Positions 24,146 through 56,541 of a stretch of 64,000 nt of DNA are shown one piece after another. Made by a program: the position numbers and the translations under genes. Below the pieces are notes generated by a model. The model saw only the letters and a list, made by a program, of their open reading frames with translations. It was not told where the DNA came from and did no database searches. Each line of letters begins with the position of its first letter. The stretch's first letter is position 1. The stretch comes from Bradyrhizobium sp. SZCCHNS1050 (GTDB taxonomy: Bacteria > Pseudomonadota > Alphaproteobacteria > Rhizobiales > Xanthobacteraceae), in assembly GCF_032484785.1 (NCBI RefSeq), contig NZ_JAUETR010000001.1, positions 4,281,501-4,345,500 of the forward strand. The letters are read 5' to 3'.

Positions 24146-24892
24146 ATGGGGAGGGAGCGTCACCATCAAATTGCGGCTGTGTCGGCCAGGAGCGGCGTGC
24201 TGCATCGTACCGTCTTGCCGCTGCTGGTCGCCATGGCGTTCATGCTCGTCAATGCGGCGGCGAGTTTGGCTGTCGAAGCCGGCAGCCCAGGCGACGAGCA
24301 GCCCCGCTTCTTTACAATTCCAGCGCAGCCACTTGCGGCGGCGCTACAGGCCTTCGGCCAGACGGCTGGAGTTCAATTGCTCTATGAAAGCAGGTCGGCT
24401 GAAGGACGACAGTCCGCGGCGATCGACGGACTCTATACCTCCCGTGAGGCCTTGATCAGGCTCCTGGCGGGCACCGATCTCAAAATCCAATACAGCCGCC
24501 CTGGAGCGGTGACGCTGATGCTTGATGCTCCGACCGGTTCCGATGGTGTCACGCCACGATTTGGCGCGGATCTGTCGCTCGGAACGCTGCACGTCCGGGG
24601 CGAAGCGGCGAGCACGTCACACTCGCAGGAGTTCAGTGACTCGGTGCGGAGGGATGTCCATAACGCGCTGCGCAGCAACCCCCGGACGCGCGACGGCAAC
24701 TATCGCGCGGTCGTGAACCTGTGGATCAACAACGAGCGCACCATCGAGCAGGTCGAGGTGGCCGCCACATCCGGCGATCCGGCGCGGGATACATCCTTGA
24801 TCGCGGCATTGCGTGGGCTCACCATGAGTCGCCCACAACCGCCCGGAACGGCGCAGCCGGTCCGTGTCGGCGTCAGTGTCCGGACGTACTGA
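24146..24892 (+). CDS. Exported STN domain-TonB C-terminal domain protein (VreA-like)
   Basis: Exported protein of 248 aa that joins two signalling or energy-transfer parts. An N-terminal membrane/signal segment (LPLLVAMAFMLVNAAASLAV) is followed by an STN domain at residues about 52-120 (FFTIPAQPLAAALQAFGQTA, GVQLLYESRSAEG, DGLYTSREALIRLLAGTDL). This is the domain by which TonB-dependent receptors and VreA-type proteins contact FecR-type anti-sigma factors. Residues about 165-248 resemble a TonB C-terminal domain (DGNYRAVVNLWINNERTIEQ, then RVGVSVR). There is no beta-barrel. It ends 252 bp before the giant haemagglutinin gene and belongs with the sigma/FecR genes at 43.5-45.4 kb. Its closest described counterpart in architecture that I know is VreA of the Pseudomonas PUMA3 system. 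Confidence 0.82.
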   Translation: MGRERHHQIAAVSARSGVLHRTVLPLLVAMAFMLVNAAASLAVEAGSPGDEQPRFFTIPAQPLAAALQAFGQTAGVQLLYESRSAEGRQSAAIDGLYTSREALIRLLAGTDLKIQYSRPGAVTLMLDAPTGSDGVTPRFGADLSLGTLHVRGEAASTSHSQEFSDSVRRDVHNALRSNPRTRDGNYRAVVNLWINNERTIEQVEVAATSGDPARDTSLIAALRGLTMSRPQPPGTAQPVRVGVSVRTY

Positions 24893-25144
24893 CGTTTCGG
24901 TTCTCGCTTGGTCGACCGTCCCGCCGTGGACGTTGGCGGCGGTCATGCGCTCAGGTTGCGTTATTCGACTGGATCGCGCATCCGGCCGGCACGCGGCGTC
25001 GACATTCCGCCGATCGCGACCGAAACTCTTTCGGTGCCGGTCCCGATCAATCGTCTGTTTACCAGTGAACCGACCCACAGCGGCGCGCGTCCCGGACGCG
25101 CGCTTGGAGGTGAGGTTGCGCGCGCCGGAAATCAGGAGCGAACG

Positions 25145-28100
25145 ATGTCGCAGGGCAGGTCGATGCACGCGAGGCGGGCAGCAGTGGCGATCACGTGCCA
25201 GCGACGTGCTGTGCATGCGGGCGACAGCGGCCGGCGCTCGCCGGACATCGGGGTACAGGCGCCGGCTGCAGGTCCCGCCGTCGCGTACCGGCACGCTGCG
25301 TGCGGGGCGCATACGTCCCGCTTCAAGCGATTGGTATGGCTCGGTTGCGTGAGTGCAATCGCGCTCTTCTTGAATGGCGCTGCCGTCCAGGCGCGACCAC
25401 TCGGTGCGTCGGGGGCGGCGTCGGCTGCCGCCGCGGCGAGCGCTGCAGCCTCGGCCGCCTCTCAACAGGCAGCAACGATCGCAAAGCAGTCGCAGGATGC
25501 GATGACCAAGGCTGCAGCCATGCTGAAGGCGATGCAAGCGGCGCAGGCTGCTGCCCGCAATGTCGCGACGACCGGCACGTCGAACAGCCTCGGCGTCGGC
25601 CTTCCGGCTGTGACCGACGGTTTGTCGCCCGGCGGCCTCGTGGTCGATCCACGCGTCGTGAACGCTTCCCAGGCCGGCACGGCCACCAACCTCTGGAGCG
25701 GAGCCGACCAGCCGGTTCAGTCCGCGAGCAATGGCCAGACCACGGTCACGATCAAGCAGACCGCCTCTCAGGCGATCATGACCTGGTACCAGTTCAATGT
25801 CGGCAAGAACACCACACTCGTTTTCGATCAGAAGGGCAATCCCGGCTGGGTTGCTCTCAACCGCGTGGATGCGACCGGCAAGCCGAGCCAGATCCTCGGC
25901 AACATCAAGGCCGATGGCACGGTTCTGCTGATCAATCCGAACGGCATCATCTTCGGCGGCGCCAGTCAGGTGAATGTCGGGTCACTGATTGCGACCACCC
26001 ACGATATCGCTGGAACCTCGACCGCTGCTGCCTCGGCCTTCTCGGGTACCAGCCCGAACTACAGCCTGCAGAGCGTCACCGCGAACGGTACGTCGTACTC
26101 GTTTGCCGCACCGGCCAACGAGAGCGGCGCTAACGACTTCTTCCTGCAGAGCGGGCTTTTCGTCACGGCCGCAACGAACTCCAACGGACTCTCGGTGGCC
26201 AGCGGCAAATCTGCCGTCTTCGTGATGGGCGACCAGACGCTGGGATCGCTCGGCGGCGGCGGCATCGTGGTGCAGCCGGGTGCGAACATCACCGCCAACC
26301 CCGGTGGCTCGACGACCAGCAACGGCTATGTAGCGCTGATCGGACCTACGGTCACCAATTCCGGCACGCTGACCGCCATTAATGGCCAGATCGTCCTCGC
26401 AGCTGGAAGCGGGATCGTGCTCACCGAGCCGTTCTCGTCGGCGACCGGGGTCAAGCAGGCGCTGACGGCGACCTCGTTCACGCCGGGCACGACCACAGTG
26501 TTTGTCAACGTGGCGAATCAGGACCAGATCGCGCTCTCGGCGGCGATCGCGACCAAATCTCTCACCACGGTTTTGCCGAATGGCGGCCTCGTTACCAATG
26601 ATGGCCTGATCGTCTCCAACGACGGTGCGGTCAGCGTGGTCGCCGATAGCATCCGCCAACTCGGAGTGATCGAAGCTACGACGAGCGTCACCCGACCTGG
26701 GTCGATCGGTCTGAGCACATCCTACACGGCTCCGACGGCCAACGGAGCGATCGGGAGCATCGTGCTCGGACCGAGCAGCCTGACGACGATCCTGCCGGAC
26801 GAGACCAGCAGCACCATCCCCACCAATACGGCCACGTCGACCTATTTCGCGGCCAACATCCAGCCGCAGATCTCGATCAAGGCGAGCGGTGACGTCGACC
26901 TGCAAGGCACTGCAGATGGTGCTGGAGGGGCGTTCCTCAGGGCGCCCGGAGCGGCGGTCGAACTGGCGGCCGGAGTTCTGTCAAGTGGGACGAGCGGCAC
27001 CGTTCTGATGGAAACGGGCAGCAGCATCGACCTGTCAGGTCTCGTCGGCGTGACCTTGCCGACTTCCAACTACATATTGAGCTTTAAGGTGACTGCTGCC
27101 GAGGTCGCGGATACGCCGCTGGCGCGGGGGCTGATCGGCAGCACCGTCACGATCGATGCACGGCTCAGCGGAACGCGGGCCGACGGATTTTCGTGGGTCG
27201 GTTCGCCGCTTCTCAATGCCCAGGGCTTTACCGGCCTGATTCCGAAGACGATCGAAGAGTTGCTGACCGTGGGCGGCAAGCTCACGATCACTGCGGGACA
27301 GAACGCGATCACGCTGCCTGGTTCCTCGATCAACCTCTCCGGCGGCTATGTCCAATATGCCCCGGGCTTCGTGGCCACGACACGGGTGGTCGGCTCCAAC
27401 GGCCGCGTCTACAACATTGGCAGCGCGCCGTCCGATCTCAGCTACACCGTTCTCAGCGGCTTCACGGTCGATCATGCACGCTGGGGCGTGACCGAGACCT
27501 ACGCCAGCATGTTGGCGGCCGGCTATTATGATCCGGGCTACGTCTCCGGCCGAAGCGCCGGCTCCGCCGGCTTCACCGCGGCCGCGCCAATTCTGGAAGG
27601 ATCGTTCGTATCGGGGATCGTTGTCGGTGAGCGCCAGCGCGCCGGCCTCGAAAGCATGCCGAATGGCGCAGGACTCGGCGTGACCCTGTCGGGCACCAAC
27701 AGCACGACCTACACAGTGTTGCTCGAACCGCGGGCCGACGCCGGCCTGGATCCGTTCGGCATGTCGACGTTCAAGCTCGGAACATCCTGGTCTCCGACGC
27801 TGGTCGCGCTTGCCGACGGCACGCTGGCATTCCCGGTGTTCAGCGACCTCCTCACATCGTCAGCCTTCCGCAGTGTCAGCATCAACACCGGCAGCAATGC
27901 CATGCTGCAGATGACCGCAGATGCCGCGCTCACCGTGCTGCCCGGTGGCAGCGTGACGCTCGGCAACGTCGAGCGGGTCGACGGGACCATCACGGCGCGC
28001 AGCGGCAGCATCGTCCTGACGGGATCGACCATCGACACCGGGCTCGCCCGATCCGTGGCGGTGCAGGATCTCCTCGTCACGGGTCGGCTCGATGTCAGCG

Positions 28101-31100
28101 GACTGTGGATCAACGACAGCGGCGCCGCTAACGGCTCGCTGCTCGGATCCGCCTATGTCGACGGCGGCTTGGTGACGATCAGCACGACGGCGGACATCGT
28201 CCCCACGATCGGAGCTTTGATCGGATCGGGAACGACCACCTCCGGAACCGACCTTAGCAAGACGGTCGACAACATCGTCAGTGCGACCGACGACCTCACG
28301 CGCAGCATCACGTTGGCGAAAGGAAGCGTCATCGACGTCTCGAGCGGGGGCTATCTCGATCGCGGCGGTGTCCTTAAGAGAGGTGCCGACGGGGTGCCGC
28401 TCGGACGAGGTGGAAGTCTCAGCCTCAATACCTACGTCTCGTCTCGTTCGTTCCTGCTGCCGACCTATGACGTTGCGAAGACTGCGATCCTGGACAGCTC
28501 AGGAAAAGTCCTGGTGAATGCGGGCGGCACCTTCTATCACGCGTCGGCTACGCTGGATCTCGGCACCGTCATCTTTACGCCGATCCAGAGTGGCTATCGT
28601 GCCAACACCTATATGCAAGGGAGCATCTACGCCCAGAGTTTTGCCGGGGGAGGCACTTTCACACTCAAGGCGCCCTACCTCCAGGTCGGTGGGACCGACA
28701 CGGTCTCCTATGCACCGGGTGAGACCCAGAGTGGCGGCGTCGGCCAGATCAACCTGCCGACCTCCTTCTTCAGCAAAAGCGGGTTCGGCAGCTACGCGCT
28801 GATCGGGCTGGCGGAAGCCAATGTAGCCGCAAACACCGCGCTGACGCTGCAACAGTCGAATCTCCTGACCCCGGCTCCCGGATCGCTGGCAGGGACCGCG
28901 ACGAACGCTGCAAAGGCGAGCGATCTTGCCCAGGCCGGGACCGTGATCGATGGCCTGCGCAAGCCGCTCAATCTGTCGCTCACGCAGTCCGGCATCGATC
29001 TGTCCCAGTCCGGCTTTGCGAACGTGACCGGCGGTATCAATGTCGGCGCGGGGACGACGATTACCGCCGATGCCGGAGCAACAGTGAGCTTGGTCGCCGA
29101 TCAGGCCGTGAGCTTTAAAGGCAGCATTGCCGCCGGGGCGGGCGCCACGGTCACGATGGTCTCGAACAATGCCGCCTTGACCGTCGCCGGCAGCGTCAAG
29201 GCGCAAGGCGGGGCTATCAACCTCGCGAGCGCTGGCAACCTCACGATCGCCGCCGGCAGCATGCTCGACGTGAGCGGCGTGTTCGTGCCCGATCCGACAG
29301 TGAGCCGTTATACGACCGGAACGGTCTATGATGGCGGCACGGTCACCCTGCTCAGCAACGCCACGGTCGAGGTGCAGCCGGGTGCCACGATCAACATTGC
29401 CGGCGCGGCGGGGGTGATCGAAGTCCCCGTCGGGCGCGAGCTCCAGACCCAGGCGGTGTGGAGCAATGGCGGCACGCTGCAGATTGGAGGCGTCACGGTC
29501 TATCTCGGTGGCACCTTGTCCGCGGCCGGAGGCGCGCCGCTGGCCACGGGTGGATCCCTGTCACTCGGTGATTTCGCGTTGCCGGGGACGCTTGCGTCCT
29601 ATGGGTCGATCATCTCCAACATCTACAACGCCGATACGCAATCTGTCATTGGCATCAGGTCCGGCATCCTGATCGCCCAGAGCGGTCTGGCGACGCCGTC
29701 CACGACTGTCACGCTCACCGCCGACACGATCAACAATAGCGGACTCAGCTCCGTGTCGCTCGCGGCCGGAGGATATTTGGGCGTGCAAAATAAAGCCACG
29801 ATCGGGTTTGCCGGGTCGACGGAGATCAGCGTGCCAGGATCGCTGGTGCTTCACAGCGGAAGCAACCTGATCAGCATCCTGGCGGCCGGCGCCAAATTGG
29901 CCAATCTCAATGATACTCCGACGAGCGTCGGTGGCGCGACCGTCACGCTCGACGCCGGTTACGTCCGGCTGGCAGGGAGCAGCTATGAGCAATTCCCCTC
30001 TCCCCCCGCAGCGAAGAACTTGGCGGACGGCACGCTCTATGTCGGCTCGGACGGCGTATCCCATGGCCGCTTTGTCACGCAATGGATCGATCTCCAGGGT
30101 GACCTGTCACTGGTGAATGTCGGCAATGCCACGCTGACCACGGCCGGCGCAGTGCGGCTGCTGCCCGGCCGCTATGGCAGCGAAGCTGTTGCGCCCACCG
30201 GCACCACGCTCGGCGGCTACTTCGTCACGCCCGGTCGGCTCACCATCACGGCGTCCGAGATCTTTCCAGCCACGAGCACCGCCTTCCTGCTGATGTCGAC
30301 GATGAGCGTCAGCGATTCCTCGCCGACGCTGACCATCAGGCAATATGCTGGTAGCTCGCCGACCGCGCCGCTGTCGGCCGGCGGCACGCTCGTGCTCGAC
30401 GCGCAGAACATCGAGCAGGACGGCACGCTGTGGGCGCCGCTCGGCAACATCGTCATCGGGCTGCGCTCGGCCGCCGACATGCCGCTGGCGGTGACCCAGT
30501 CGATCGTGTTGACATCGGCAACGGCCTATTCGGGCGCACTGGCGCAGACCCAGTCGGTGACTCTCGGCGCCGGCAGTCTGACCGCGGTCTCGACCGGCGG
30601 TCTCGACATCCCCTATGGAACGACGGTCGATGGCGCGACCTGGTACTACGGCATCAATCTGAACAATAGCTCTAGTCCCGTTCCCCAACAAACCGCAGCG
30701 CCGGCAAAATCGATCAGCGTCTTCGGCTCCTCGGTCAAGCTGGGCGGCAGCATCGATGCCAGCGGCGGTGGCGACGTGTACGCGGTCGAATATGTCCCGG
30801 GCACTGGCGGGACCCGCAACGTCCTGCTCAACTATCAGACGGTTTCAACCGTCACCTCGAGCGGCACGACCACCAGCTTCACGTCGACATATGCCGATGG
30901 ACGTCAGGTCTACGCGCTAGTGCCGGCCTACGAGGCCCAGGTGGCCGCCTACGACCCGGCCTTCGCCACCTATCCTTTTTATTCCGGGAAGAGCGTGACG
31001 TCCGCCGGTCTCGTTGCAAGCGGGAGCAAGCTGTCCAGCTTCCCCGCTTCGGCCTTGAACAATGCCGCCGGGATCGCGCCGGGGACCTCCGTCACCTTGA

Positions 31101-34100
31101 GCGGTGGCAACGGAATCGCGGCCGGCACCTATGTGCTGCTCCCCGGCATGTACGCGACCTTGCCCGGCGCCTACCGGGTTGTGCAATACGCAGCCGGTGC
31201 TGCAGCATCGACCGGCAGCTTCACCGGGGCCGACGGCTCGGTCTATGTGACCGGCTCTTTCGGCAATGCGATCACGGGTGCCCGCTCGTCGCAAACGGTG
31301 CTGTTCCAGCTGCAATCGCAGGCGGTCTGGGGACAGTCCTCCAAGATCAACATCACCAGCGGCACCAGCTATTTCTCGAGCTACGCGGCAAACAACGGCC
31401 TCGCGCCGACTGCTCTGCCGGTCGATGGCGGACTGCTCGTGATCGGTGCCACCAGCCGGCTGAGCCTCGGCGGCACCAACAATTTTGCCGCCGGCAGCAG
31501 CGATCTGGCGCCGGCGGTCCAGGGGGCGACCGGGCAGATCGACATCGCGGCCGCGAACATCGCGATCGTCGCCAGCGATCGGCTGGGCCAGTTCGGCACC
31601 GTCGCCGCCGATGGCAGCTTCACGGCAAGCGCGGCGTTCAGCAATTATCTGTTCCTGGATGCCGACCAGATCAGCAATCTCGGCGCCGGCAGCGTGCTGA
31701 TCGGCGGCACCGCGTCCGTCACCTCGCCGGGCTCGATCACGGCGATTGCCACGAATCTCGAGGTCGCGTCCGATGCACAGCATCAGCTCGTTGGTCCCGA
31801 GCTGATCCTGGTCACCCAGGCCGGCGGCGCCAGAGGACTCACCGTCGATGCCGGCAGCGTGGTTACCACCAAGGGAACCGTATCCGGGACCAGCCGGAAC
31901 ATCACGCTGAGTGGGGACGGCGCATTGCTGCGGGTGTCGAACGGCCGCATGGTTTCCGTTACCCGCAGCGGCGCCACCGGCACCGGGAGCTTCGCCATCG
32001 GCACGGCTGTTGGAACGGCGCAGCTCGTGGCCGGCGCCGGCGTCGTGATCACGGCCGGCAATTCGCTCATGGTCGATACCAGCGGCTCGGGTGCGTTCGC
32101 GCCCGATTTGGCGAACAGCAATGGTGCGTCCACGACCGGCGTCACGCTCAAGGCGCCCAACCTGTCGATCGCCGCGAACACGTTCAATTTCGGTCCCGAG
32201 GGCCTGGCGGCCAGCGGCCTCAATCTGACGCCCGGTCAGTTCAACAGCCTGTTTGCCGGGGCCACGTCGGTGACCCTGCGCAGCAATACCGGATTCGACT
32301 TCTACGACCAGGCCGGCCTGACGCTCGGTGACGCCGCCAATCCGATCGGCACGCTGACCTTCGACGGCTCCGGCTTTTACAGCATCGGCAGCAACACGAG
32401 CGGGGCTGGCGCCACGGATTGCTCTGCCTACTGTGCCACCATCGCGGCGACCAACATTACTCTCATCAACAGCCGCGGCGCGTCCGGCGTCAGCGCCGAC
32501 CCGACCGTCGTCGCCGGCGCAGGCGGCACGCTCAACCTCAATGCTGCCAAGGTGATCACCGCAGATGCCGGCGCCAAGAGCTTCGGCGGGTTCAGTAAGG
32601 TCAACTGGAACGCTTCCGACGGCATCGTCTTCACCGGAGCAGGCAGCATCGATGCGGCTGTCGCCACCGCGACGGCAAAGTTCAACCTCAGCTCGGTCAA
32701 GATCAACAACGCTGGCACGGGATATACCAGCGTGCCGACGGTGACGATCTCCGGCGCCGGCGGAACGACGGCGACCGGCACCGCGCTGCTCGGCATCGTA
32801 TCGTTCAACGTGTCTACCTCCGGCAGCGGATCGAGCTATCGCAACGGTGATCTGATCACGATCAAGGACTCGGTCACGGGAGCCGTTGCCACCGGAACGG
32901 CCGTCATCAGCTCCACGGGCGCCATCACCGGCGTCAACATCATCTCCGGCGGTTCCGGCTTCAGCGGCGTCCTCGCCAACTTGACGCTGACGGTCTCTGC
33001 CGGCTCGGGCTCCGGCGCGGCCATCGGCACGACAGCCTCACCCACCGTGGGGCTTCAACCGCAGTTCGGTGTGGTCGGCGTGAACGTGACAGGAGGCACA
33101 GGCTACACCGGAATTCCGACGGTCACGATTTCCGGCGGCGGCGGCTCCGGTGCCTCCGTGCAGGCGGTCGCCACGGTTAGTTCCCTGACGGTCGCCAATG
33201 GCGGCACCGGTTACACGAGCGCGCCGCTCGTCACCATCACCGGAGGCGGCGGCGCCGGTGCGGCGGCGACGGCCACGCTCGGCGGCACGGGCATCTCCGG
33301 GCTGACCCTGACCAATGGCGGAACCGGCTACACCAGCGTGCCGACCATCTCGATCTGGGGCGGCTCCGATCTCACGCTGTCGGCGCCTGACGTCGTGGTG
33401 AAAGCCGGCGCCAATCAGACGGTCACCGCACGCGGCAATCTCGTGGTGCAGGGAAATGGCGCCAGCGTGTTTGCCGCCGACAACAGCATCAGCGGCAAGC
33501 TGGCGCTGACCGGGGCGTCGGTCACGGCCCGGAACGGCGTGCATATCGATGCCGCCGGCGGCAAGGTCAGCCTGACTGCGGCGGCGGGGGACGTCGCGCT
33601 CACGTCCGGCGCCGCGATCAACGCCCAGGGCTTGCGGCTGCCGGTGAACGATCAGTTCATGGATGCGCCGGGCGGCAGCGTGCAGCTGATCTCCAGCCTC
33701 GGCAATGTCAGCATCGTCGGCGCGACCGTCGACGTGTCCAATCCCTATGCCGGCTATGCCGGGTCGCTCGCAATCCAGACCGGCAACAACGGCACGACCG
33801 GCACCGCCACGCTGGCGGGCACGCTCAATGGCGCAGCGCGGTTCAACGATCTCGGCGGCACTTTCAGCCTGCTAGCGGGCAACCTGAACGGCACGCTGCC
33901 GCTCGACGGCGCGACGCCGAACTTCTCGAGCAGTTTCACGGTGAGCTTGCAGAGCGGCAACATCGAGCTTCCGGCAGGCGCGACACTGACGTCGCGCAAC
34001 GTCCAGCTCACTGCCAATGGCGGCAGCGTCAATGTCGGCGGCACCATCGATGCGCGCGGTCTCAGCGGCGGCCAGATCTCGCTGTTCGGAACGGGAACGT

Positions 34101-40036: not shown

Positions 40037-40116
40037 TTCTGAAACGCCCGCCCCTGGGTGACCTTTCGGAACACGCGGCCGCGAAGGTCTCGTCACTAAC
40101 AAAGTACCGGCTCACA

Positions 40117-43480: not shown

Positions 43481-43545
43481 TTGGTCAACGGCGTCGCCAT
43501 CTCTGGTCGTCACGTCACTGTCATTCTCCGCCGATAGGTACAACA

Positions 43546-44414: not shown

Positions 44415-45386
44415 ATGGATCAGACCCTTCGTCAGGCTTTGGCATGGGTGATCCGTCTTCATTCCGGGGAGGCAACCTCGGACGATGCTACTGCGTTGAC
44501 GTCGTGGCGACAGCGAAGCCCTGAGCACGAAGCCGCGTTTCGGCAGGCGGTCACGCTATGGCGCGGCTTTGGCGACGCCACCCGCAAGCTCGCTGGCGAT
44601 GCTGCGTTCGTCAAAGCAGCTTCGCGCCCGGAGCCGATGCCTCGTGCTGGTCTCGGCCGCCGCGCGCTGATCGGCGGAGCGATTGCGGCTGCAGCTTCAG
44701 TGGCCGGCGGCTATCTGGCGCTCCGTCCGCCGTTGGATCTCTGGCCGTCGCTGCAGGAACTGTCCGCCGACATGCGGACGGCCAAGGGCGAGCGGCGCAG
44801 CGTTGCGCTGGCGAGTGACGCCTCCCTGGTGCTCAACACCCAGACCAGCATCGCCTTGCGACCCGCGGATGGGCCACGGCGGTTCGAACTCATTTCGGGA
44901 GAGACCGCGGTGCAGTGCGGATCGACCGCACGGGACCCGGTCGTCATCGATGCTGCAGGCGGTCAGATTACGGCGTCGCAGGCCGACTTCAACCTGAAGT
45001 GCCTCGATGGTCTCGTGACCGTCTCGTGTCTCGACGGCAGCGTCGATGTTGCGTGCAAGAGCCGTGTCGTCAAGCTCGTCAAAGCTCAGCAGATTTCCTA
45101 CTCGGGCGACAAAGGGCTTGGCTCGACCTCGCGGCTGGATCTCGACACGGCCAAGGCCTGGCAGAATGGCCTTCTGATCGTGCGCGATTGGCCGGTCAGT
45201 CGCCTGGTCACCGAGATCAACCGCTATCGCCCAGGCAAGATCGTGGTCCTGGACGAGCAACTCGGGCGGCGCATGATTTCCGGGACGTTTCATCTCGACC
45301 GCCTGGATGATTTCATCAGCCAGGCCGAGAACCTGTTCGGAGCCAAGGCACGCTCGCTGCCGGGCGGTCTCGTTCTGCTGAGCTGA
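44415..45386 (+). CDS. FecR-type anti-sigma factor
   Basis: Inner-membrane sigma regulator of about 323 aa. An N-terminal cytoplasmic DUF4880-like segment binds sigma (LRQALAWVIRLHSGEATSDD, then WRQRSPEHEAAFRQAVTLW). One membrane helix follows (GGAIAAAASVAGGYLAL). The periplasmic FecR domain has ERRSVALASDASLVLNTQTS and FELISGETAV. The C-terminal STN-like part ends DWPVSRLVTEINRYRPGKIV and ISGTFHLDRLDDF. The start is uncertain: ATG 44415 (MDQTLRQ) or ATG 44322. It follows the sigma gene after a spacer of at least 167 bp. In related systems the signal comes from an STN domain; the STN-TonB protein at 24146 is the obvious candidate, as no TonB-dependent receptor is present. Confidence 0.88.
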   Translation: MDQTLRQALAWVIRLHSGEATSDDATALTSWRQRSPEHEAAFRQAVTLWRGFGDATRKLAGDAAFVKAASRPEPMPRAGLGRRALIGGAIAAAASVAGGYLALRPPLDLWPSLQELSADMRTAKGERRSVALASDASLVLNTQTSIALRPADGPRRFELISGETAVQCGSTARDPVVIDAAGGQITASQADFNLKCLDGLVTVSCLDGSVDVACKSRVVKLVKAQQISYSGDKGLGSTSRLDLDTAKAWQNGLLIVRDWPVSRLVTEINRYRPGKIVVLDEQLGRRMISGTFHLDRLDDFISQAENLFGAKARSLPGGLVLLS

Positions 45387-49373: not shown

Positions 49374-49377
49374 CGCC

Positions 49378-49782
49378 ATGCAGATCAATACCGACTCCAA
49401 GCCCTATGACGACATCAACATCACGCCGATGTTGGACCTCGCCTACGTGCTGCTCGTCATCTTCATTATCATGACGACGGCGACGGTGCAGGGGCAGAAG
49501 GTCAATCTGCCGAAAGCGTCGGCGGCGCCGAGCCTCGCGACGCAGACGACCAAGGCGATCACCGTGGCCAACGACGGCAAGATCTTCCTCGACACCATTC
49601 CGGTGACCTTGCCGGAGCTCGAGCAGCGCCTGATCCAGCAGAAGGCATTGACGCCGGAATTTCCGGTGGTGCTGCGCGGTGATGCGCAAGCGCAATATCA
49701 GAGCGTGATGGACGTGCTCGACCTGCTGGGCCGCATCGGCCTGACCCAGGTCGGGCTTGCGACCAAGCCGTTGGTGAAGTGA
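49378..49782 (+). CDS. exbD: ExbD/TolR-family proton channel subunit
   Basis: Inner-membrane partner of the ExbB-type channel, 134 aa. A short cytoplasmic N-terminus leads to DINITPMLDLAYVLLVIFII, with the conserved membrane aspartate (MLDLAYVLL) needed for proton flow. The periplasmic domain follows (ITVANDGKIFLDTIPVTLPE, VVLRGDAQAQYQSVMDVLDL). Its ATG lies 4 bp after the ExbB-fusion stop; its stop overlaps the next start (GTGATC at 49779). Length and motif order are normal. Confidence 0.95.
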   Translation: MQINTDSKPYDDINITPMLDLAYVLLVIFIIMTTATVQGQKVNLPKASAAPSLATQTTKAITVANDGKIFLDTIPVTLPELEQRLIQQKALTPEFPVVLRGDAQAQYQSVMDVLDLLGRIGLTQVGLATKPLVK

Positions 49783-50279
49783 TCGAGGTGGACCAGATCA
49801 TGCGCAAACGGCCTCCGCATCATCCGCCTGGTTCGCATCGCCCTGAAGCTGGCGTGCTCGTGCACATGCGTGAGCTCATCCTGCGGCGGCGGATGCAATT
49901 GCTGCCAGCGCGGCCTGAAGGGGAGACGGCGCTGAGTGAATGCGACGAGTCTGCTGCTGTGCTGCCGTTTCCGGTCCGGAGCGAAGCGCTGCTCGCCAGC
50001 CTGGTGCCGACACTGCGCGGCCTCTACGTCAGTGGAGAGGATGAGAGCGACCCGTTTCTGATGACCATGTCGCACGGTCCGCGGCCGCGATTGTCGATCG
50101 ATCGCGACGCCTATGTCGAGCTTCGGCACCAGCCCGAGGCGTTCCTCCTGAAGATCGCCGCCGCGCCGGATTCGAAGATCACGTTCGAAACGCCGGATTT
50201 CACAACGCTGGTGAAGTTCGTGCTGCAGTACATGGCCGAGCGTCATGGTGAGCCCAGGCCGGGCGGGAGCTTGTCGTGA
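49779..50279 (+). CDS. Unknown protein between exbD and tonB
   Basis: I do not recognise this 166-residue protein. The GTG at 49779 overlaps the exbD stop and its own stop (TGA 50277-50279) overlaps the tonB start (GTG 50276), so it is tightly coupled within the operon. No signal peptide or membrane segment is visible. Features are a basic N-terminus with HPPGSHRPEAG and RELILRRRMQLLPARP, then a compact region FRSEALLASLVPTLRGLYVS-like (here VRSEALLASLVPTLRGLYV) and AFLLKIAAAPDSKITFETPD. It may be a cytoplasmic regulator or adaptor of the Ton motor. Overlap at both ends supports a real gene. Confidence 0.75.
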   Translation: MIEVDQIMRKRPPHHPPGSHRPEAGVLVHMRELILRRRMQLLPARPEGETALSECDESAAVLPFPVRSEALLASLVPTLRGLYVSGEDESDPFLMTMSHGPRPRLSIDRDAYVELRHQPEAFLLKIAAAPDSKITFETPDFTTLVKFVLQYMAERHGEPRPGGSLS

Positions 50280-51031
50280 GCAAGCTCGAGAGCGGCTGTC
50301 AAGCAGCGGCCGAGCCGGCGCGAGCCGGTGCCCAACCAAGCCGGTTGCGCTCGTCGCTGAGTCTGACCGCAAAGATCATGGCGATCGCATTGCCGTTGGG
50401 CGGTGTCGCCTATTGGGTTCTCGCCCAGCGCGATCAGCCGCCTCCGCCGCGTCAGGTTCACGAGATCACGCTGCTCAACATCACGCCGCCGCCTCCACCG
50501 CCTCCGCCCCCGAAGGTGGCACCGCCGGTCGAGCAGAGGATGATCGAGCAGCAGAAGATGGCGGAGCCGGAATTCAAAGAGGACAAGCCGCTCGACAAGC
50601 CGCAGGACAAGCCGGTCAAGGACGCCAAGGACGATCAGCCGCCGGGCCCGCTGTCGCTCGACGCCAAGGCGACCGGCCCCGGCGATCTGTTCGGTCTCGG
50701 CGGCAAGCCCGGCGGCAGCCCCTATGGCGGCGGCGGAGGCGGCGGCGGGAGCCGCTGGGGATGGTACGCCTCGATCATTCAGCAGCAGATCGAGGCGGCA
50801 CTGCGCGCCAACGACAAGACCAAGAAGGCGGTCATCAGAGTGCAGATCAGCCTTTGGGCCGACAGCTCCGGACGCGTCAGCCGCGTCCAGCTGCTCTCGT
50901 CAACGGGGGACGCTGCGTTGGATCAGGCGCTGCGCGACGACGTTCTCGGCAGTCTGACGCTGCGCCAACCGCCGCCGAAGGACATGCCGATGCCGATCGT
51001 GACACGCGTCACGGCGAGCCGGCCGAGCTGA
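50276..51031 (+). CDS. tonB: TonB-family protein (second copy, with the ExbBD-like motor)
   Basis: Energy transducer of 251 aa. One N-terminal membrane helix (LTAKIMAIALPLGGVAYWVL), a Pro-rich linker (ITPPPPPPPPPKVAPPVEQ) with Lys/Asp/Pro repeats (DKPLDKPQDKPVKDAKDDQP), a Gly hinge, and a TonB C-terminal domain (WYASIIQQQIEAALRANDKT, AVIRVQISLWADSSGRVSRV). The GTG at 50276 overlaps the preceding stop. The C-terminal domain resembles that of the STN-TonB protein at 24146 (both have xVxLWxxxxx and a TSGD/STGD segment), which suggests duplication of a partner-specific domain. It completes an ExbB-ExbD-TonB set. Confidence 0.93.
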   Translation: MSKLESGCQAAAEPARAGAQPSRLRSSLSLTAKIMAIALPLGGVAYWVLAQRDQPPPPRQVHEITLLNITPPPPPPPPPKVAPPVEQRMIEQQKMAEPEFKEDKPLDKPQDKPVKDAKDDQPPGPLSLDAKATGPGDLFGLGGKPGGSPYGGGGGGGGSRWGWYASIIQQQIEAALRANDKTKKAVIRVQISLWADSSGRVSRVQLLSSTGDAALDQALRDDVLGSLTLRQPPPKDMPMPIVTRVTASRPS

Positions 51032-51069: not shown

Positions 51070-52944
51070 ATGTTCGAGACTTTTCCAAATGCACGCCGAT
51101 GTGCGCTTCTGATTGCCGCCTCGCTCGCGGTGGCCGGTAGTGCCGCTCCGGCATTTGGCCAGACTTCCGATCAGGCCACAGCATCCGAGAAGAAGTCGGG
51201 CTCGACCAAACCGAGATTGTCCGATGCCCGTCCGACCTCGCCGAACGCCACGATCAATCTCGTCCATCTCCTGGTCAAGCAGGGCGTCCTCACCGAGGAC
51301 CAGGCGGCGGGGCTGATCAAGCAGGCCGACGACGAAGCCTACATCGCGCGCCAGGCGGCGAAGAACGCGTCGACCAGAGCCGAGGAAGCCGCCAAGGCTG
51401 CCAATGCCGCGGCGGCGGCGACCGAGCCGAACGGGACGCGGCACGTCACCTACGTGCCGGAAGTCGTCAAGCGGCAGCTGCGTGAGGACATCAAGCGCGA
51501 GGTGATGGCGAAGGCCGAGCACGAGAACTGGGCGTCTCCGGGCAAATACCCGGAATGGGCGCAGCGCATCCGCTTCTACGGGGATATTCGTGCCCGCTAC
51601 CAGGGCAGCTTCTTCCCGACCGGGAATGATCAGCTCGATGCGTTCAACTTCAACACCGTGAACACAGGCTCTCCGTACGACATGGCGAGTGCCTACAATC
51701 TGCCGACTTACAACGCCTCCAAGAACCGCAACCAGGTCAAGCTTCGCGCGCGCCTCGGAATGGAGGCGGATCTCACTAACGGCTTCTATGCTGGACTCCG
51801 CATTGCCACGGGAGAGTCGAATTCTCCGGTTTCGACGAACCAGACAATGGGCGGCGGTGGTTCGAATTTTTCCAAGTTCGGGCTGTGGCTCGATCGGGGT
51901 TACCTGACCTATCAGGCATGGGACCGGGACCTGGTTGCGTCGGTCGGACGTTTCGATAATCCGTTCTGGTCGCCGACCGATCTCGTCTGGCATCGCGATC
52001 TCGGTTTCGACGGCTTTGCGCTACAGGGCAAATATCGCGTGTCCGAGAGCTTCACGCCGTTCGGCGTGATCGGCGCCTTTCCGATCTTCAACACCGACTT
52101 CAACGCTGGTACCAATCTGACGCAGCTGGACTCCAAGTTTGCAAGTCACGACAAGTGGCTGTTCGGCGCGCAGGGCGGCTTTGCGTCGCGTTTTGATCCA
52201 CTGCACGAATTCCGGGTCGCCGCTGCATTCTACGATTTCGAGAACGTGCAGGGCCAGCCTTCCGAGCCTTGCTACGTTCAGTCGAGCTCGGATGTCTGCA
52301 ACACGGACCAGACGCGGCCATTGTTCGCCCAAAAGGGAAACACCTACACTTTGCTGCGCAACTTCCAGGTGGGCTCCTGGAATAATTACGGCACGACGGG
52401 TCTCTATCAATATTTCGGTCTGCTGCAGAAATACCGGCCGCTGACGGTGAGCGCATCGGTCGATCTCGGCGACTTTCATCCCTATCACATCGTGATCGAT
52501 GGCGAGTTCGTCTGGAATACGGCCTTTAATCGGGCGCTCACTGCCGCCGGCACCGGCCTCGCCGCAAGCACCGGCATCACGGCGCCCGGCATGGCGCTAA
52601 ACAATCGCGCAGCCACGTCGAACGGACAGACCATCGGCCCGTTCAATGGCGGTGATAAAGGATGGATGACACGTGTTACGGTCGGCAACAAGGAGATCAA
52701 GCAGCTCGGCGACTGGAATGTCCACGCCGGCTACAAATATTTGGAGTCCGACGCCACGCTCGATGCGTTCGTCGATTCCGATTTTGGTCTCGGTGGCACC
52801 AATCTCAAGGGCTATTTCCTCGGCGGCAGCTACGGTCTCAGCCCGAATGTCTGGGCCTCGCTGCGCTGGATGAGTGCCAATAGCATCGGGGGCGCGCCCT
52901 ACGCGGTCGACGTGCTGCTCGTCGACCTTAACGCGAAGTTCTGA
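51070..52944 (+). CDS. Putative outer-membrane porin with N-terminal coiled coil
   Basis: Predicted beta-barrel porin of 624 aa. Signal peptide (ALLIAASLAVAGSAAPAFGQ). A periplasmic segment follows with LVHLLVKQGVLTEDQAAGLI and an Ala-rich coiled coil (AKNASTRAEEAAKAANAAAA). From residue 160 on it has barrel strands rich in Tyr/Phe/Asn (IRFYGDIRARYQGSFFPTGN, LRARLGMEADLTNGFYAGLR, DRDLVASVGRFDNPFWSPTD), ending VDVLLVDLNAKF with a terminal Phe. This fits the putative-porin family with an SLH-like or linker start. It could be the outer-membrane partner energised by the TonB set, but it lacks a plug domain. ATG 51070 is 38 bp after the tonB stop. Confidence 0.85.
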   Translation: MFETFPNARRCALLIAASLAVAGSAAPAFGQTSDQATASEKKSGSTKPRLSDARPTSPNATINLVHLLVKQGVLTEDQAAGLIKQADDEAYIARQAAKNASTRAEEAAKAANAAAAATEPNGTRHVTYVPEVVKRQLREDIKREVMAKAEHENWASPGKYPEWAQRIRFYGDIRARYQGSFFPTGNDQLDAFNFNTVNTGSPYDMASAYNLPTYNASKNRNQVKLRARLGMEADLTNGFYAGLRIATGESNSPVSTNQTMGGGGSNFSKFGLWLDRGYLTYQAWDRDLVASVGRFDNPFWSPTDLVWHRDLGFDGFALQGKYRVSESFTPFGVIGAFPIFNTDFNAGTNLTQLDSKFASHDKWLFGAQGGFASRFDPLHEFRVAAAFYDFENVQGQPSEPCYVQSSSDVCNTDQTRPLFAQKGNTYTLLRNFQVGSWNNYGTTGLYQYFGLLQKYRPLTVSASVDLGDFHPYHIVIDGEFVWNTAFNRALTAAGTGLAASTGITAPGMALNNRAATSNGQTIGPFNGGDKGWMTRVTVGNKEIKQLGDWNVHAGYKYLESDATLDAFVDSDFGLGGTNLKGYFLGGSYGLSPNVWASLRWMSANSIGGAPYAVDVLLVDLNAKF

Positions 52945-52947
52945 CCC

Positions 52948-53547
52948 ATGCGCAAACGTTGGATCGTCCACAGCATCGCAGCTATCGCCTGCATGCAGGT
53001 GAGCCTCGCATACGCCGCCGACAGCGACGCCGACAAGCTGCGCGAGGCGTTGCGCGCGGCCACCATGCAGACGCGCCAGTTGGAGGACCAGCGCGCCGCG
53101 CTGCAGGCGAAGCTTGCCGACGCCGACAAGGAGAAGGCCGCCGCCAAGGTCCAGATCGAGGCTGCGAAGGCCGAGACCCGCAGGGTCGAGAAGCGCGAGC
53201 GCGAGATGACGGAGGAGTTCAACCGCCGCCTCGCGGAGCGCGACGAGACCCTGGACAAATGGAAGGCCGCCTATGAGGAGGCGGCCAGCGTCGCCCGCGA
53301 TCGCGACGCGGCGCGCGCCAAGTTCGAGGCTGACGCCAAAGCGTACAAGGCATCGACCGACAGCTGTGTTGCCAAGAACACGCAACTGATCAAGCACGGC
53401 CAGGATCTGCTGCAGCGTTATCAAAGTGTCACCATCGGCGACACAATCGTGGCGCGTGAGCCCGTCCTCCGCTTTCGGCGGGTCGAAATCCAGAACGCGA
53501 TCCAAGATCTCCAAGACAAGATCCTCGACCAGAAGGCAGCACCATGA
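52948..53547 (+). CDS. Periplasmic coiled-coil protein
   Basis: Exported protein of 199 aa, function unknown. After a signal peptide (IVHSIAAIACMQVSLAYAAD) residues about 25-130 form a long charged coiled coil (heptads in RQLEDQRAALQAKLADADKE and AKAETRRVEKREREMTEEF). The C-terminal part has SCVAKNTQLIKHGQDLLQRY. Its ATG lies 3 bp after the porin stop; its stop overlaps the isomerase start (ATGA at 53544). It may act as a periplasmic spacer or chaperone for the secretion partners. Confidence 0.85.
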   Translation: MRKRWIVHSIAAIACMQVSLAYAADSDADKLREALRAATMQTRQLEDQRAALQAKLADADKEKAAAKVQIEAAKAETRRVEKREREMTEEFNRRLAERDETLDKWKAAYEEAASVARDRDAARAKFEADAKAYKASTDSCVAKNTQLIKHGQDLLQRYQSVTIGDTIVAREPVLRFRRVEIQNAIQDLQDKILDQKAAP

Positions 53548-54599
53548 GCTCTTCATCGTTCGGCAGCACAGTCCGGCTGCGATCGTTCCAGGTTTCCATG
53601 CTCGCCGCGGCGCTGGCCTGCGCCCCCTTGGTGGCTTCGGCGCAGACCGCCCCACCGCGTCCTGCTGCGCCGGCCGTCAAGCCGAAGCCGTCAGCACCGG
53701 TGGCGGCCACGGCCGCGCAACCTCCGGCCTCGACGCCGGTGCAGAGCGTCGCATCCGGCAAGGGCACGGGAGGCGATGACGTCATCGCGCGCGTGGGTGG
53801 CACCAACGTCTCCGCCGACGAGATCCGCGGCTATGTCGCCGCGCTCGGGCCGCGCGAACGCGCTGCGTTCGGACAGGATCCGGGCCTGCTCAGCCAGGCC
53901 GTTCGCATGATGCTGGCCAATCGGATTGTGCTGCAGGAGGTCGTCGCCAAGAAGTGGGATCAGCAGCCGAACATCGCCGAACAGCTTGACCGCGTGCGCG
54001 AGAACGCCGTGGTGGAGCTGTATCTGCAGTCGGTGTCGACACCTCCCGCCGGCTTTCCCAGCGAGGACGAGCTGCAGAAGGTCTATGATGCCAACCGTGC
54101 CGCCCTGCTGATGCCGCGCCAGTTCCAGCTGGCGCAGATCTTCGTGCCGCTGACAAAGGATTCCGACAAGGCGGCCGAGGACAAGAGCAAGAAGACGATC
54201 GAGGACATTCAGCGTAAGCTGAAAGCGCCGGGCGCCGATTTCGCGGCCCTCGCCAACGACACCAGCGAGGTCAAGAATGGCGGCGATTTGGGCTGGATCG
54301 TCGAGAGCCAGATCCGGCCGGAGATCCGCACCAGCGTGATGGAGCTCGCCAAGGGCGCCGTGTCGGAGCCGATCAAGCTCGACGATGGCTGGCACATCCT
54401 CAAGCTGGTGGACACCAAGGCGTCCTACACGCGGACTTTGCCCGAGGTCCGTGATGCGCTCGTGCAGCAGATCCGCAACGAGCGCGCGAGCGCGCTGCGG
54501 CGCGCCTATCTCGCCGAACTCGTGAAGCAGCATCCGCCTGTCATCAACGAGCTCGCGCTGTCCAATCTGCTCAGCGAGCAGGTCTCGGCGGCGAGATAG
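53544..54599 (+). CDS. SurA/PpiC-type periplasmic peptidyl-prolyl isomerase
   Basis: Exported isomerase/chaperone of 351 aa. The signal peptide ends near LVASAQ; an Ala/Pro linker follows. A SurA-like N-terminal domain covers residues 75-180 (VIARVGGTNVSADEIRGYVA, LANRIVLQEVVAKKW). One PpiC rotamase domain follows at about 190-310 (QFQLAQIFVPLTKDSDKAAE, GGDLGWIVESQIRPEIRTS, DGWHILKLVDTK). SurA-type proteins carry outer-membrane barrels and two-partner exoproteins through the periplasm, which fits the locus. The start overlaps the coiled-coil gene stop by 4 bp. Confidence 0.92.
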   Translation: MSSSSFGSTVRLRSFQVSMLAAALACAPLVASAQTAPPRPAAPAVKPKPSAPVAATAAQPPASTPVQSVASGKGTGGDDVIARVGGTNVSADEIRGYVAALGPRERAAFGQDPGLLSQAVRMMLANRIVLQEVVAKKWDQQPNIAEQLDRVRENAVVELYLQSVSTPPAGFPSEDELQKVYDANRAALLMPRQFQLAQIFVPLTKDSDKAAEDKSKKTIEDIQRKLKAPGADFAALANDTSEVKNGGDLGWIVESQIRPEIRTSVMELAKGAVSEPIKLDDGWHILKLVDTKASYTRTLPEVRDALVQQIRNERASALRRAYLAELVKQHPPVINELALSNLLSEQVSAAR

Positions 54600-54665: not shown

Positions 54666-55193
54666 ATGTCCGACACCATCATCGACAGGCTGCCCCTCGA
54701 TCAGCTGCGCGAGCAGTTCCAGCACGCGGGCTACCGCGTCGAAACACTGACCGATCCCGCCGCGAACGTGTCCTATCTGCGGTCCGCGACCAACGGGATC
54801 GCATTCGACATTCGTCCCGGCAATATGGTGCCCGGCGACGAGCAGGTCTTCGTCGATGTCGCGCTGACTGCGGTCCTGCATGTGCAGGGTGAGATGCCGC
54901 TCGATCTCGTCAATCGCTGGAACGCGACGCGCCGCTTTGCGCGCCTGCAATTCAGCCCGCCCTTCCTGGCTTTGTCGCTGGACATCTCCCTGGCGGGCGG
55001 CGTTTCGCCGGACCATGTACGCGGACAGATCGAGATCTGGGATCAGCTCGTGCAGCAGCTGGTGTCTTTCCTCCGTGAGGAGATCTCAGCCCTTGCCAAG
55101 CCGAAGCAGGCCGACGATGCCCAGATGGCGACGACGACCGCGTCCGCAAACGGCCACATCGCTGATGCGGGTCCGGCTCGTCCAGTGCAGTAG
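54666..55193 (+). CDS. YbjN-domain protein
   Basis: Cytoplasmic protein of 175 aa with a YbjN fold, a small family structurally like type III secretion chaperones. Visible features: LDQLREQFQHAGYRVETLTD, FVDVALTAVLHVQGEMPLDL, VNRWNATRRFARLQF and ALSLDISLAGGVSPDHVRGQ. No signal peptide. It lies 66 bp after the isomerase stop and 7 bp before the lytic transglycosylase gene, in the same run of genes. A chaperone-like role for the secreted protein is possible but is inference. Confidence 0.86.
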   Translation: MSDTIIDRLPLDQLREQFQHAGYRVETLTDPAANVSYLRSATNGIAFDIRPGNMVPGDEQVFVDVALTAVLHVQGEMPLDLVNRWNATRRFARLQFSPPFLALSLDISLAGGVSPDHVRGQIEIWDQLVQQLVSFLREEISALAKPKQADDAQMATTTASANGHIADAGPARPVQ

Positions 55194-55200
55194 CGCGCGC

Positions 55201-56061
55201 ATGGGGGACAGCGTGAGCATCGATCCTGGTAGGCCAAACGCGGCCATACCGTGCGACCGCCGCAGGGGTGTGCTCGCAGCCGTCGCGATTGCACTGGCGG
55301 GGGCCGTCTCGGCCGTCCCGTTGCACGCGGAGCCGGCTGCGGAGGATCGCGCCACTCGCGAGAGTGATGCTGGCTCTGGAGCAACGCTGAACGTTGTCGC
55401 CAGGCCGCCAGTGGCTTCTGCACTCGCAAAGCCAGGATCATCCTCGTCTCCTTCCCTCGGCACGTCTTCGAATGCAGGTCAGTCAGACGCACTCGGCACC
55501 TATCGGGCGTTGATCACCAAGGAGGCTCGGAACTCAACACTTGCGCCGGAGATTGCCGAGGCGGTCATGGCCGTGGAGAGCGGCTACAACCCCGACGCGA
55601 TCGGCGGCTCCGGCGAGATCGGCCTGATGCAGATCATGCCGTCGACGGCGCGGATGCTGGGGTTTATCGGTAGCAATGCCGAGCTCGCGGTGCCCGAGAC
55701 CAACATTCACTATGGTGTGCTTTACCTGGCCCAGGCTTGGCGTCTCGCCGGCGGCGATCTCTGTACTGCCACGATGAAATATCGCGCCGGTCATGGCGAG
55801 ACGCGGTTCTCCTATCTGTCGGTCAACTACTGCCTGGCGGTGCGGGCCAAGCTCGCCGCCCGCGGCTTCGCCGTGACCGGCGAGGTTCCGACGGCGACCT
55901 TCGGAGCGCCCGGCAGCGCCGGTTCGAGCAGCGTTGTGCGCGCTGCAGGCGCCTGTGGCCGCCGCTGTCTCATCGGACCGGCGACGGTCGGCCGTGTCGA
56001 TTTGGCATCCCTCAATGCGAGACTCAGCACGCTAGTCGTGCAGGCGCGCGCGGGCAGGTGA
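55201..56061 (+). CDS. Lytic transglycosylase (SLT family)
   Basis: Peptidoglycan-cleaving enzyme of 286 aa. Signal segment (GVLAAVAIALAGAVSAVPLH), low-complexity linker, then an SLT domain at residues about 105-200: LAPEIAEAVMAVESGYNPDA with the catalytic Glu in ES, GEIGLMQIMPSTARMLGF and NIHYGVLYLAQAWRLAGGDL. The C-terminal tail has two Cys (ACGRRCLIG). The ATG at 55201 lies 7 bp after the YbjN stop. In a secretion locus such enzymes open gaps in the wall for large envelope machines. Confidence 0.92.
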   Translation: MGDSVSIDPGRPNAAIPCDRRRGVLAAVAIALAGAVSAVPLHAEPAAEDRATRESDAGSGATLNVVARPPVASALAKPGSSSSPSLGTSSNAGQSDALGTYRALITKEARNSTLAPEIAEAVMAVESGYNPDAIGGSGEIGLMQIMPSTARMLGFIGSNAELAVPETNIHYGVLYLAQAWRLAGGDLCTATMKYRAGHGETRFSYLSVNYCLAVRAKLAARGFAVTGEVPTATFGAPGSAGSSSVVRAAGACGRRCLIGPATVGRVDLASLNARLSTLVVQARAGR

Positions 56062-56067
56062 CAACCC

Positions 56068-56541
56068 ATGCTGTTCTTGAGCCGATGGCCCATCCCGGCA
56101 ATGACAACCGTTCCTGCCGTGATGTTGCTCCTCGTCAGCGGGCCTTCCATCGCTGCCGAGCCGCAACTTCTTCCGCCGGTGACGGTGGACCTGCCTGATC
56201 GCCCGCCAGCGAGTCCGCTGTTGCCGGGATCAGGGGACGCGGCCGCGGCTCCAGTGCTGGGTGGTCGCATGGCGACGTCTGGCGACAAACCCGAGCGCTG
56301 CACGGGCAATGCATCGGCACAGCCTCGCACGTTCGGCTGCATCAACGAGAGCCTCAGGCGCAAGGTGGACGCCGTGAACCCCGCCGAAAACCAGACGCCG
56401 ATCGACGCGAGATCATCCGATCTCAAAGTCGGCACCGTGAACATTCCCGCGGTACGGCAGCAGTATGGAGCCAATTTCGGACGCTCGGTCGTGCCGTATC
56501 GGCCTACGGCGGTGTTTCCTTCGGGCTTGGGGCGACGCTGA
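56068..56541 (+). CDS. Small unknown exported protein at the end of the secretion locus
   Basis: Predicted exported protein of 157 aa, not recognised. A signal peptide (TTVPAVMLLLVSGPSIAAEP) is followed by a Pro-rich stretch (LLPPVTVDLPDRPPASPLLP) and a region with two Cys (KPERCTGNASAQPRTFGCIN), which may form a disulphide. The C-terminal part (YGANFGRSVVPYRPTAVF) is Tyr/Arg-rich. It lies 6 bp after the transglycosylase gene. A weak hairpin (CGGGCGT at 56543, ACGCCCG at 56560) follows the stop and may end the transcript. Confidence 0.75.
   Translation: MLFLSRWPIPAMTTVPAVMLLLVSGPSIAAEPQLLPPVTVDLPDRPPASPLLPGSGDAAAAPVLGGRMATSGDKPERCTGNASAQPRTFGCINESLRRKVDAVNPAENQTPIDARSSDLKVGTVNIPAVRQQYGANFGRSVVPYRPTAVFPSGLGRR

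Follow-up and report, generated by a model that had tools for sequence, protein, structure and literature searches.

A Bradyrhizobium locus of the PUMA3 group in which DUF3739-type two-partner secretion is inherited together with a Ton-type motor

The closest described relatives of the locus studied here belong to PUMA3, a cell-surface-signalling system of Pseudomonas aeruginosa. Its VreA protein is reported to join an STN domain to a TolA/TonB-like C-terminal domain, the genes upregulated by VreI include tpsA, tpsB, exbB2, exbD2, PA0696-PA0698 and the gene of the PpiC protein PA0699, and PUMA3 clusters with two-partner secretion (TPS) genes, ExbBD and PA0696 homologues occur in Rhodopseudomonas palustris and others (Llamas 2009, PMC2729926). 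According to Quesada 2016 (PMC4971064), a single promoter serves phdA, pdtB, exbB2D2, tonB4 and PA0696-PA0701 in P. aeruginosa, and both this operon and pdtA have PhoB- and VreI-dependent promoters. In the literature the function of VreA is described as unknown and the exbB2-exbD2-tonB4 genes beside pdtB as ‘still uncharacterized’; DUF2341, the domain that heads the ExbB discussed below, is noted in PMC12505986 as a domain without known function appended to the N-terminus of A subunits of generic ion transporters. Here we analyse positions 24,146 to 56,541 of a 64,000-nucleotide stretch of Bradyrhizobium sp. SZCCHNS1050 (contig NZ_JAUETR010000001.1), referred to in full as the window, and find in it what is almost certainly a Bradyrhizobium-like member of the PUMA3/PdtAB group. 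The locus is of a known kind and well conserved, not a new kind of system. What we add is that the export pair travels with a motor of its own and that the tail of the exported fibre carries a conserved signal, a clue to the role of that motor. Its anatomy and gene order are those of a two-partner secretion locus controlled by cell-surface signalling and furnished with a dedicated Ton motor; the explanation we favour, with moderate confidence, is that this motor is functionally coupled to the secretion.

The core of the locus, like every feature below unless a minus strand is given, lies on the plus strand. By Pfam and NCBIfam, the exoprotein TpsA (24908..39217) has a TPS domain near its N-terminus and DUF3739 near its C-terminus (about 38591-38929), and by Pfam its partner TpsB (45601..47376) combines POTRA_2 and ShlB. 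TpsB is followed by an ExbB (about 47370..49373) in which a large N-terminal extension, DUF2341 and a laminin-G-like (LamG) domain, precedes the proton-channel core, then by ExbD (49378..49782), by the motor TonB (50276..51031; TonB_b) with a TonB_2 C-terminal domain, and by a Porin_5 outer-membrane porin (51073..52944), all assigned by Pfam. The corresponding locus of P. aeruginosa PA7 (L096) holds TpsB, a DUF2341-LamG-ExbB fusion, ExbD, TonB_2, Porin_5, YbjN and PpiC by Pfam, together with an upstream DUF3739 TpsA and a coiled-coil protein recognized by our own models. All genes that a first-pass annotation of this DNA had listed are where it placed them, as judged by open reading frames and Pfam; the 4690 residues it gave for TpsA hold when counted from 25145, the first ATG of the frame; and the resemblance to PUMA3 that it had pointed out agrees with the domain set and with the PA7 gene order, except that PpiC and YbjN are swapped. 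Its suggestion that having the motor and the envelope helpers within one block is what is new does not stand, because the PA7 order already includes the fused ExbB and the P. aeruginosa operon is read from a single promoter. Its list is extended by genes at 42716-43480, 49779-50279 and 56068-56541, and three proteins rather than one have a TonB-type C-terminal domain.

The evidence that carries the favoured explanation is joint inheritance. Across 398 Pseudomonadota genomes, evenly drawn, DUF3739 occurred in 14, and the same 14 held a full-length Porin_5 (best match E 1e-141 or better); DUF2341 was present in 13 of them and in 0 of the other 384. In the remaining DUF3739 genome (G323), ExbB is truncated by the limits of a contig of 3.8 kb. 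The TPS domain was found in 141 of the 398, including all 14 DUF3739 genomes, and neither DUF3739 nor DUF2341 was detected in any of the other 127 TPS-domain genomes. Six more genomes gave Porin_5 matches that were no better than weak or partial (best E 2e-34 to 7e-4), and four of the six belong to those 127. A closer survey of 41 genomes (the own genome and 40 relatives) gave the same picture, with DUF2341, DUF3739 and Porin_5 each in 7 genomes, and in the same 7. The joint occurrence of exporter, motor, porin and DUF3739 TpsA is not a matter of chance.

Gene order points the same way. Among the 14 DUF3739 genomes, TpsB-ExbB-ExbD-TonB-porin was read in the window, in G239, G169, G294, G417, G363, G133, G341 and G431, and twice in G194; in G399 and G059 the order is ExbB-ExbD-TonB-porin, the stretch read containing no TpsB, G307 has ExbB-ExbD-TonB and TpsB-porin on separate contigs, and the G323 locus is cut. 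A wider set of named loci was obtained by scanning contigs with a porin alignment and keeping the best 80 of the 539 stretches that were confirmed, so that the presence of the porin in them is partly by construction. In the 72 of these 80 with sufficient sequence upstream of the porin, on which the gene-order counts are based, TpsB, ExbB, ExbD, TonB and porin were present throughout (72/72) and consecutive in 71, the exception (L142) having its TonB match split over two frames. Other families fell inside the stretch in part of the same 72 loci: DUF3739 in 32, the coiled-coil protein in 54, YbjN in 49 and PpiC in 31. When the reciprocal test was made on 28 named genomes picked from the best 80 of 539, all 28 had a DUF3739 match, with up to six per genome. 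Closer to the window, TpsB-ExbB-ExbD-(hypothetical)-TonB-porin-coiled coil-PpiC was kept in all six congeners compared (28-33 kb read around the core), and all 7 of the other Bradyrhizobium loci read have a lytic transglycosylase (SLT) close to the core. One record of the wider set, L164, is titled Bacillus subtilis SK7B5 and carries this Gram-negative locus; it is probably a mislabelled or contaminated assembly.

TpsA itself is not tied to the exporter/motor core. The relative G004 has four DUF3739 TpsA genes far from the core, and G003 has one on another contig; in G022, G002 and G014 a TpsA match falls inside the 33 kb read around the core. A VreA-sigma-FecR set lies upstream of three of the four G004 TpsAs and, by position, of both TpsAs examined for this among the three of G239. 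The ‘self-contained’ locus of the first-pass annotation is not a rule: the order of the core persists in 6 of 6 congeners, but DUF3739 TpsA genes are far off in G004 and on another contig in G003; the comparison of gene order in relatives that it proposed likewise finds the exporter and motor genes conserved and the positions of TpsA, VreA, the second sigma gene and the PstS-like gene variable. Its proposal of a coupling between Ton energy and the export or display of the fibre is unproven and gains comparative support, since a DUF3739-type TpsA is co-inherited with the motor, TpsB and the porin.

We consider the link between motor and TPS by inheritance strong, and a functional coupling of the two probable. 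A reading that needs no physical coupling, in which these genes are co-regulated neighbours of one starvation regulon, would draw on the shared PhoB- and VreI-dependent promoters of the P. aeruginosa operon and pdtA (Quesada 2016, PMC4971064) and on the distance at which TpsA can lie from the motor; since presence and absence correspond almost one-to-one across the 398 genomes, including those in which TpsA lies outside the stretch read, we regard that reading as quite improbable. The near one-to-one tie between one TpsA class and one motor, seen in named alpha-, beta- and gammaproteobacteria, makes the role of the motor testable, and it matters since two-partner secretion is described as needing no energy source.

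The motor proteins keep their proton-channel residues. Of 96 aligned ExbB proteins, 95 have the transmembrane threonine and one has a gap there, and the transmembrane aspartate of ExbD is kept in 98 of 98; these two are the functional proton-motor residues. The ExbB fusion is 92% identical to its homologue in Bradyrhizobium ontarionense, and the same DUF2341-LamG-ExbB architecture is found in P. aeruginosa PA7. Two points weigh against a Ton motor driving export. The SxxxH pattern, which is important in Escherichia coli TonB, is present in 0 of 99 members of the motor TonB family. Further, type V secretion is regarded as independent of any energy source and has been reconstituted in vitro with liposomes.

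Uptake rather than export could be what the motor powers. On that account the locus would be a scavenging unit, with TpsA as a surface binder in the manner of HxuA/HxuC and with the PstS-like protein and Porin_5 handling a phosphorus compound. HxuABC supplies the precedent, and Quesada 2016 (PMC4971064) reports phosphate control in P. aeruginosa. Porin_5 belongs to the core of all 72 loci (partly by construction) and, independently, to the 14 DUF3739 genomes. The PstS-like secreted protein (40312..42435; PBP_like_2 by Pfam) adjoins TpsA in the window, and homologues accompany TpsA in G003 (three copies) and G004; weak matches to its model occur in L174, L136, L109 and L122. Searches of G239, G417 and P. 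aeruginosa PA7 turned up no homologue, which speaks against this account. So does the porin. Its AlphaFold2 (AF2) model (mean predicted local distance difference test, pLDDT, 66) has N-terminal helices and, by our own count, 16 long strands with no plug; Foldseek places it closest to OmpM1, an outer-membrane attachment porin of Veillonella, followed by MOMP, OprB and OmpF-type porins. A sequence search of the PDB with the Porin_5 alignment returned nothing at E <= 1, and Pfam found no Plug or receptor family among the proteins of the block. We tried the porin as a TonB-dependent receptor, which would have a 22-strand barrel and a plug, and set that candidate aside on the strength of the model, because the predicted barrel has 16 long strands, lacks a plug and matches porins, and because the protein has no profile-grade TonB box. 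With these features the scavenging account seems unlikely to us. Separately, G276, G325, G349, G383 and G395 encode shorter proteins (frames of 446-483 residues) with partial Porin_5 matches and neither DUF3739 nor DUF2341, perhaps a separate porin family.

If the motor instead acts on TpsA, as we favour, the tail of TpsA is where contact might be sought. The 95 residues after DUF3739 are predicted to be disordered, being mostly modelled at pLDDT of about 43 with no secondary structure (AF2; model mean pLDDT 71). DUF3739 is predicted strand-rich, with most blocks above pLDDT 90, and looks beta-helix-like by our own reading; a Foldseek search of the TpsA C-terminus against the PDB gave nothing at E <= 0.001. 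Within the tail, alignments reveal a conserved motif, PSVIIVEVLGYG (39029..39064), whose 12 residues are residues 269-280 of the folded stretch and lie 50 residues before the end. It forms a conservation island of 2.3-4.1 bits per column, where the surrounding columns mostly have 1-2. A strict pattern of the motif matched 57 of 62 tails and only 10 of 12,400 shuffled tails; the five misses comprise variants in L141, L072 and L094, a degenerate copy in L093 and a misframed L098 that has the motif in the right frame. None of 20 TPS proteins without DUF3739 carried the motif (four of the 20 stretches ran through without a stop, and at least two appear misframed).

By eye the motif resembles a TonB box, and we examined this with 8-column and 6-column profiles built from 16 receptor boxes, eye-picked in the own genome (G000), G417 and PA7. 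The best hit fell in the motif for just 22 (8-column) and 24 (6-column) of 61 tails, and mean best scores for the two profiles were 2.1 and 4.3 in tails, 0.7 and 3.8 in shuffled tails, and 2.2 and 5.2 in internal stretches. The claim that the motif is a TonB box was dropped because these profiles did not favour it.

Covariation gave a different kind of clue. In a mirror-tree comparison the distances between motifs correlated best with those between motor TonB C-terminal domains (rho 0.62, partial 0.44 and 0.49), and two TonB C-terminal windows took the first two ranks among 100 windows compared for covariation with it (41 genomes). They stayed at rank 1-3 when the Bradyrhizobium, Variovorax-Janthinobacterium or Pandoraea sets were removed. 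Weighing on the other side, leaving out Burkholderia-Paraburkholderia lowered the ranks to 9 and 11, and leaving out the Xanthomonadales set lowered them to 3 and 10. A porin stretch (241-320) also covaried with the motif nearly as well as TonB (0.45 versus 0.49). The signal is clade-dependent.

The near-equal porin value, together with the negative TonB-box profile, would suit a motif that docks elsewhere (for example on TpsB POTRA, PpiC, the porin or the coiled coil) as a stop-transfer or chaperone signal, with the motor working separately on the envelope. POTRA domains, too, engage strands through edge pairing. TpsB POTRA, however, shows little specific covariation with the motif (partial 0.08), though a TpsB barrel window reaches 0.31, and we give docking elsewhere a small chance.

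Whether the motif follows the machine of its own genome was approached by comparing tails within and between genomes. In a first comparison, motif likeness was 0.87 within genomes (13 pairs) and 0.59 between them (653 pairs), with DUF3739 at 0.50 and 0.55; in a comparison of 60 of 71 tails, label shuffles reached the observed DUF3739 value in 88 of 2000. The fullest comparison kept 66 of 71 tails read, five being dropped for gaps in motif columns. There, within-genome motif likeness exceeded all 2000 label shuffles, and DUF3739 showed the same tendency, with a likeness of 0.685 inside genomes against 0.43 from one genome to another (0 of 2000 shuffles). A clean contrast, with motifs alike but DUF3739 unlike, was confined to G004 (0.90 versus 0.53) and G239 (0.94 versus 0.43). 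G194, which carries two TpsB-motor-porin sets (L074 and L075) and two DUF3739 TpsAs, has very different tail motifs (0.08 alike, with DUF3739 at 0.39). Two Pandoraea genomes run the other way, their motifs being 0.57 and 0.75 alike and their DUF3739 domains 0.78 and 0.81. A parallel comparison of TPS domains counts for little, as the aligned pieces were often short (16-139 residues). Overall, tracking of the genome's own machine by the motif is suggestive.

The signalling side begins with a barrel-less VreA-like protein (24146..24892) that has a signal peptide, an STN domain (about 24371-24520) and a TonB_2 C-terminal domain (about 24626-24865; Pfam). Its STN scored 27.3 bits, just under the Pfam cut-off of 28.4; the assignment is supported because the region matches the signalling domains of FemA, HasR and PupB (E 3e-9 to 1e-7), and the FecA N-terminus at E 7e-12, far below the cut-off of that model. 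FpvA was matched too. VreA is one of three proteins here with a TonB-type C-terminal domain, the others being the motor TonB and a distinct TonB_C protein, TonB_a (42716..43480; Pfam). The VreA domain is akin to that of the motor TonB (hhalign 99.0%, E 4e-18; 38 and 101 sequences) and unlike that of TonB_a (4%). The kinship of VreA with the motor TonB is not exclusive evidence, since the motor TonB is matched over 43 columns by TonB_a as well (95%, E 3e-8), whose own profile was built from only 4 sequences.

Two FecI-like extracytoplasmic function (ECF) sigma factors accompany VreA (Pfam, NCBIfam). Sigma 1 (39437..40102, minus strand) stands alone, with no adjoining FecR on its own strand, and sigma 2 (43546..44154) adjoins a FecR-type, VreR-like anti-sigma factor (44322..45386; DUF4880 and FecR). 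The vreA, vreI and vreR counterparts do not form a single operon here: TpsA, sigma 1, the PstS-like gene and TonB_a separate VreA from sigma 2 and FecR. In G003, G004 and G239, VreA, TonB_a, sigma and FecR are adjacent, TonB_a-sigma-FecR-TpsB following directly on VreA, and it is TpsA, the additional sigma gene and the PstS-like gene that intervene in the window.

Control of the locus by phosphate is likely by analogy with P. aeruginosa, and the Pho-box hits are weak. Each sigma gene has a candidate Pho-box-like site ahead of its longest frame, at a distance of about 15 bases for sigma 1 (40117..40134, minus strand, 2 mismatches) and about 22 for sigma 2 (43507..43524, 3 mismatches). The window as a whole holds 5 such hits where chance gives a mean of 3.5 and 24 of 100 shuffles reached at least 5, and the site is little conserved: among six congeners and G239 it recurred only in G003 (before the counterpart of sigma 2, 3 mismatches) and G239 (before a VreA). 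Role assignments for VreA meet a further difficulty, because in P. aeruginosa loss of vreA left the activity of PpdtA and PphdA unchanged in the data reported by Quesada 2016 (PMC4971064) and is described as having no effect on virulence. At a similar place, G022, G009 and G014 have a minus-strand Pho-box-like site before a gene like the hypothetical hyp157.

Put together, a TPS locus with signalling control and its own motor might work as follows. The VreA-like, sigma and FecR proteins would switch on the export genes, probably, judging from P. aeruginosa, under phosphate starvation through PhoB, and TpsB would export the 4690-residue DUF3739-type TpsA. As co-inheritance suggests, DUF2341-LamG-ExbB, ExbD and TonB may form a proton motor specific to this TPS branch, acting on the export or the surface-retention step of TpsA. 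The likeliest contact would be made in the periplasm, where the motor TonB domain could grip the strand-like tail motif and so hold, pull or release the fibre, and VreA, with its related domain, could read the same tail and report the state of export to FecR. A dock for TonB or VreA at the tail motif is tentative; we keep it as a hypothesis because the profile was negative, the covariation depends on clade and Pandoraea contradicts it. The full scheme of a proton-motor-driven, self-monitoring DUF3739 TPS, in which TonB grips the tail peptide and VreA tells sigma and FecR whether export is complete, is rather doubtful.

The remaining genes complete the block. A small protein with no family assigned (49779..50279) lies between ExbD and TonB and was matched only in G003, G004 and G239 among the loci scanned. 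Downstream of the porin follow a secreted coiled-coil protein (52948..53547), with no clear Pfam family and in the position of PA0697, a PA0699-like PpiC-type isomerase (53544..54599) and a YbjN-domain protein (54666..55193), the last two with Pfam matches and PA7 counterparts, and the lytic transglycosylase (about 55150..56061; SLT by Pfam). The last gene (56068..56541) encodes a small secreted protein that has no barrel but contains a segment resembling a TonB box, LPPVTVDL (56170-56193). The segment scores 16.1, where the 16 profile-building boxes score 12.3-22.1, and it is the sole segment in the receptor-box range among the block proteins scored. Similar segments occur in G003, G004 and G239, one group of Bradyrhizobium relatives aligned, and were not seen in the aligned G002, G009, G014 and G022 or in betaproteobacterial relatives. 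Upstream of the locus, a Pit/PHO4 phosphate permease is split over two plus-strand frames (18055-18966, profile 1-236; 18813-19682, profile 237-350), and directly before the locus lie a PhoU_div-like protein (22.1 bits, just under cut-off) and a PPDK_N/PEP-utilizer protein (together 20389-24005, plus strand). We tried these Pit, PhoU-like and PPDK genes as members of the locus and rejected them, as none was matched in the 28-33 kb around the core of six relatives. IS66-type transposase domains lie past the 3' end of the block (57357-58700, minus strand).

Compared with known systems, the locus shares with P. aeruginosa PUMA3 the barrel-less VreA that joins STN to a TonB-like domain, the ECF sigma factor and FecR, and with PUMA3 in PA7 the DUF3739 TpsA, TpsB, DUF2341-LamG-ExbB, ExbD, TonB_2 TonB, Porin_5, coiled coil, YbjN and PpiC. 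It differs from PUMA3 in that VreA adjoins TpsA, 19 kb from sigma 2 and FecR, in an extra second sigma factor, an additional TonB, a PstS-like gene and an SLT protein, and in the placing of PpiC before YbjN rather than after it as in PA7; hxc genes or phdA were not noticed in the window, at which no search for them was aimed. The R. palustris PUMA3 clusters have a plan similar to that of G004 and G239, whereas the window has a single TpsA, along with its companions, placed within the TpsB cluster. In HxuABC of Haemophilus influenzae, a TPS pair likewise works with a Ton-linked step, but HxuC is a TonB-dependent transporter and the porin modelled here is plug-less. Finally, DUF2341-type A subunits, relatives of ExbB and MotA, share the N-terminal DUF2341 appendage with the ExbB of this locus, in which, in contrast, it is tied to one class of secretion system.

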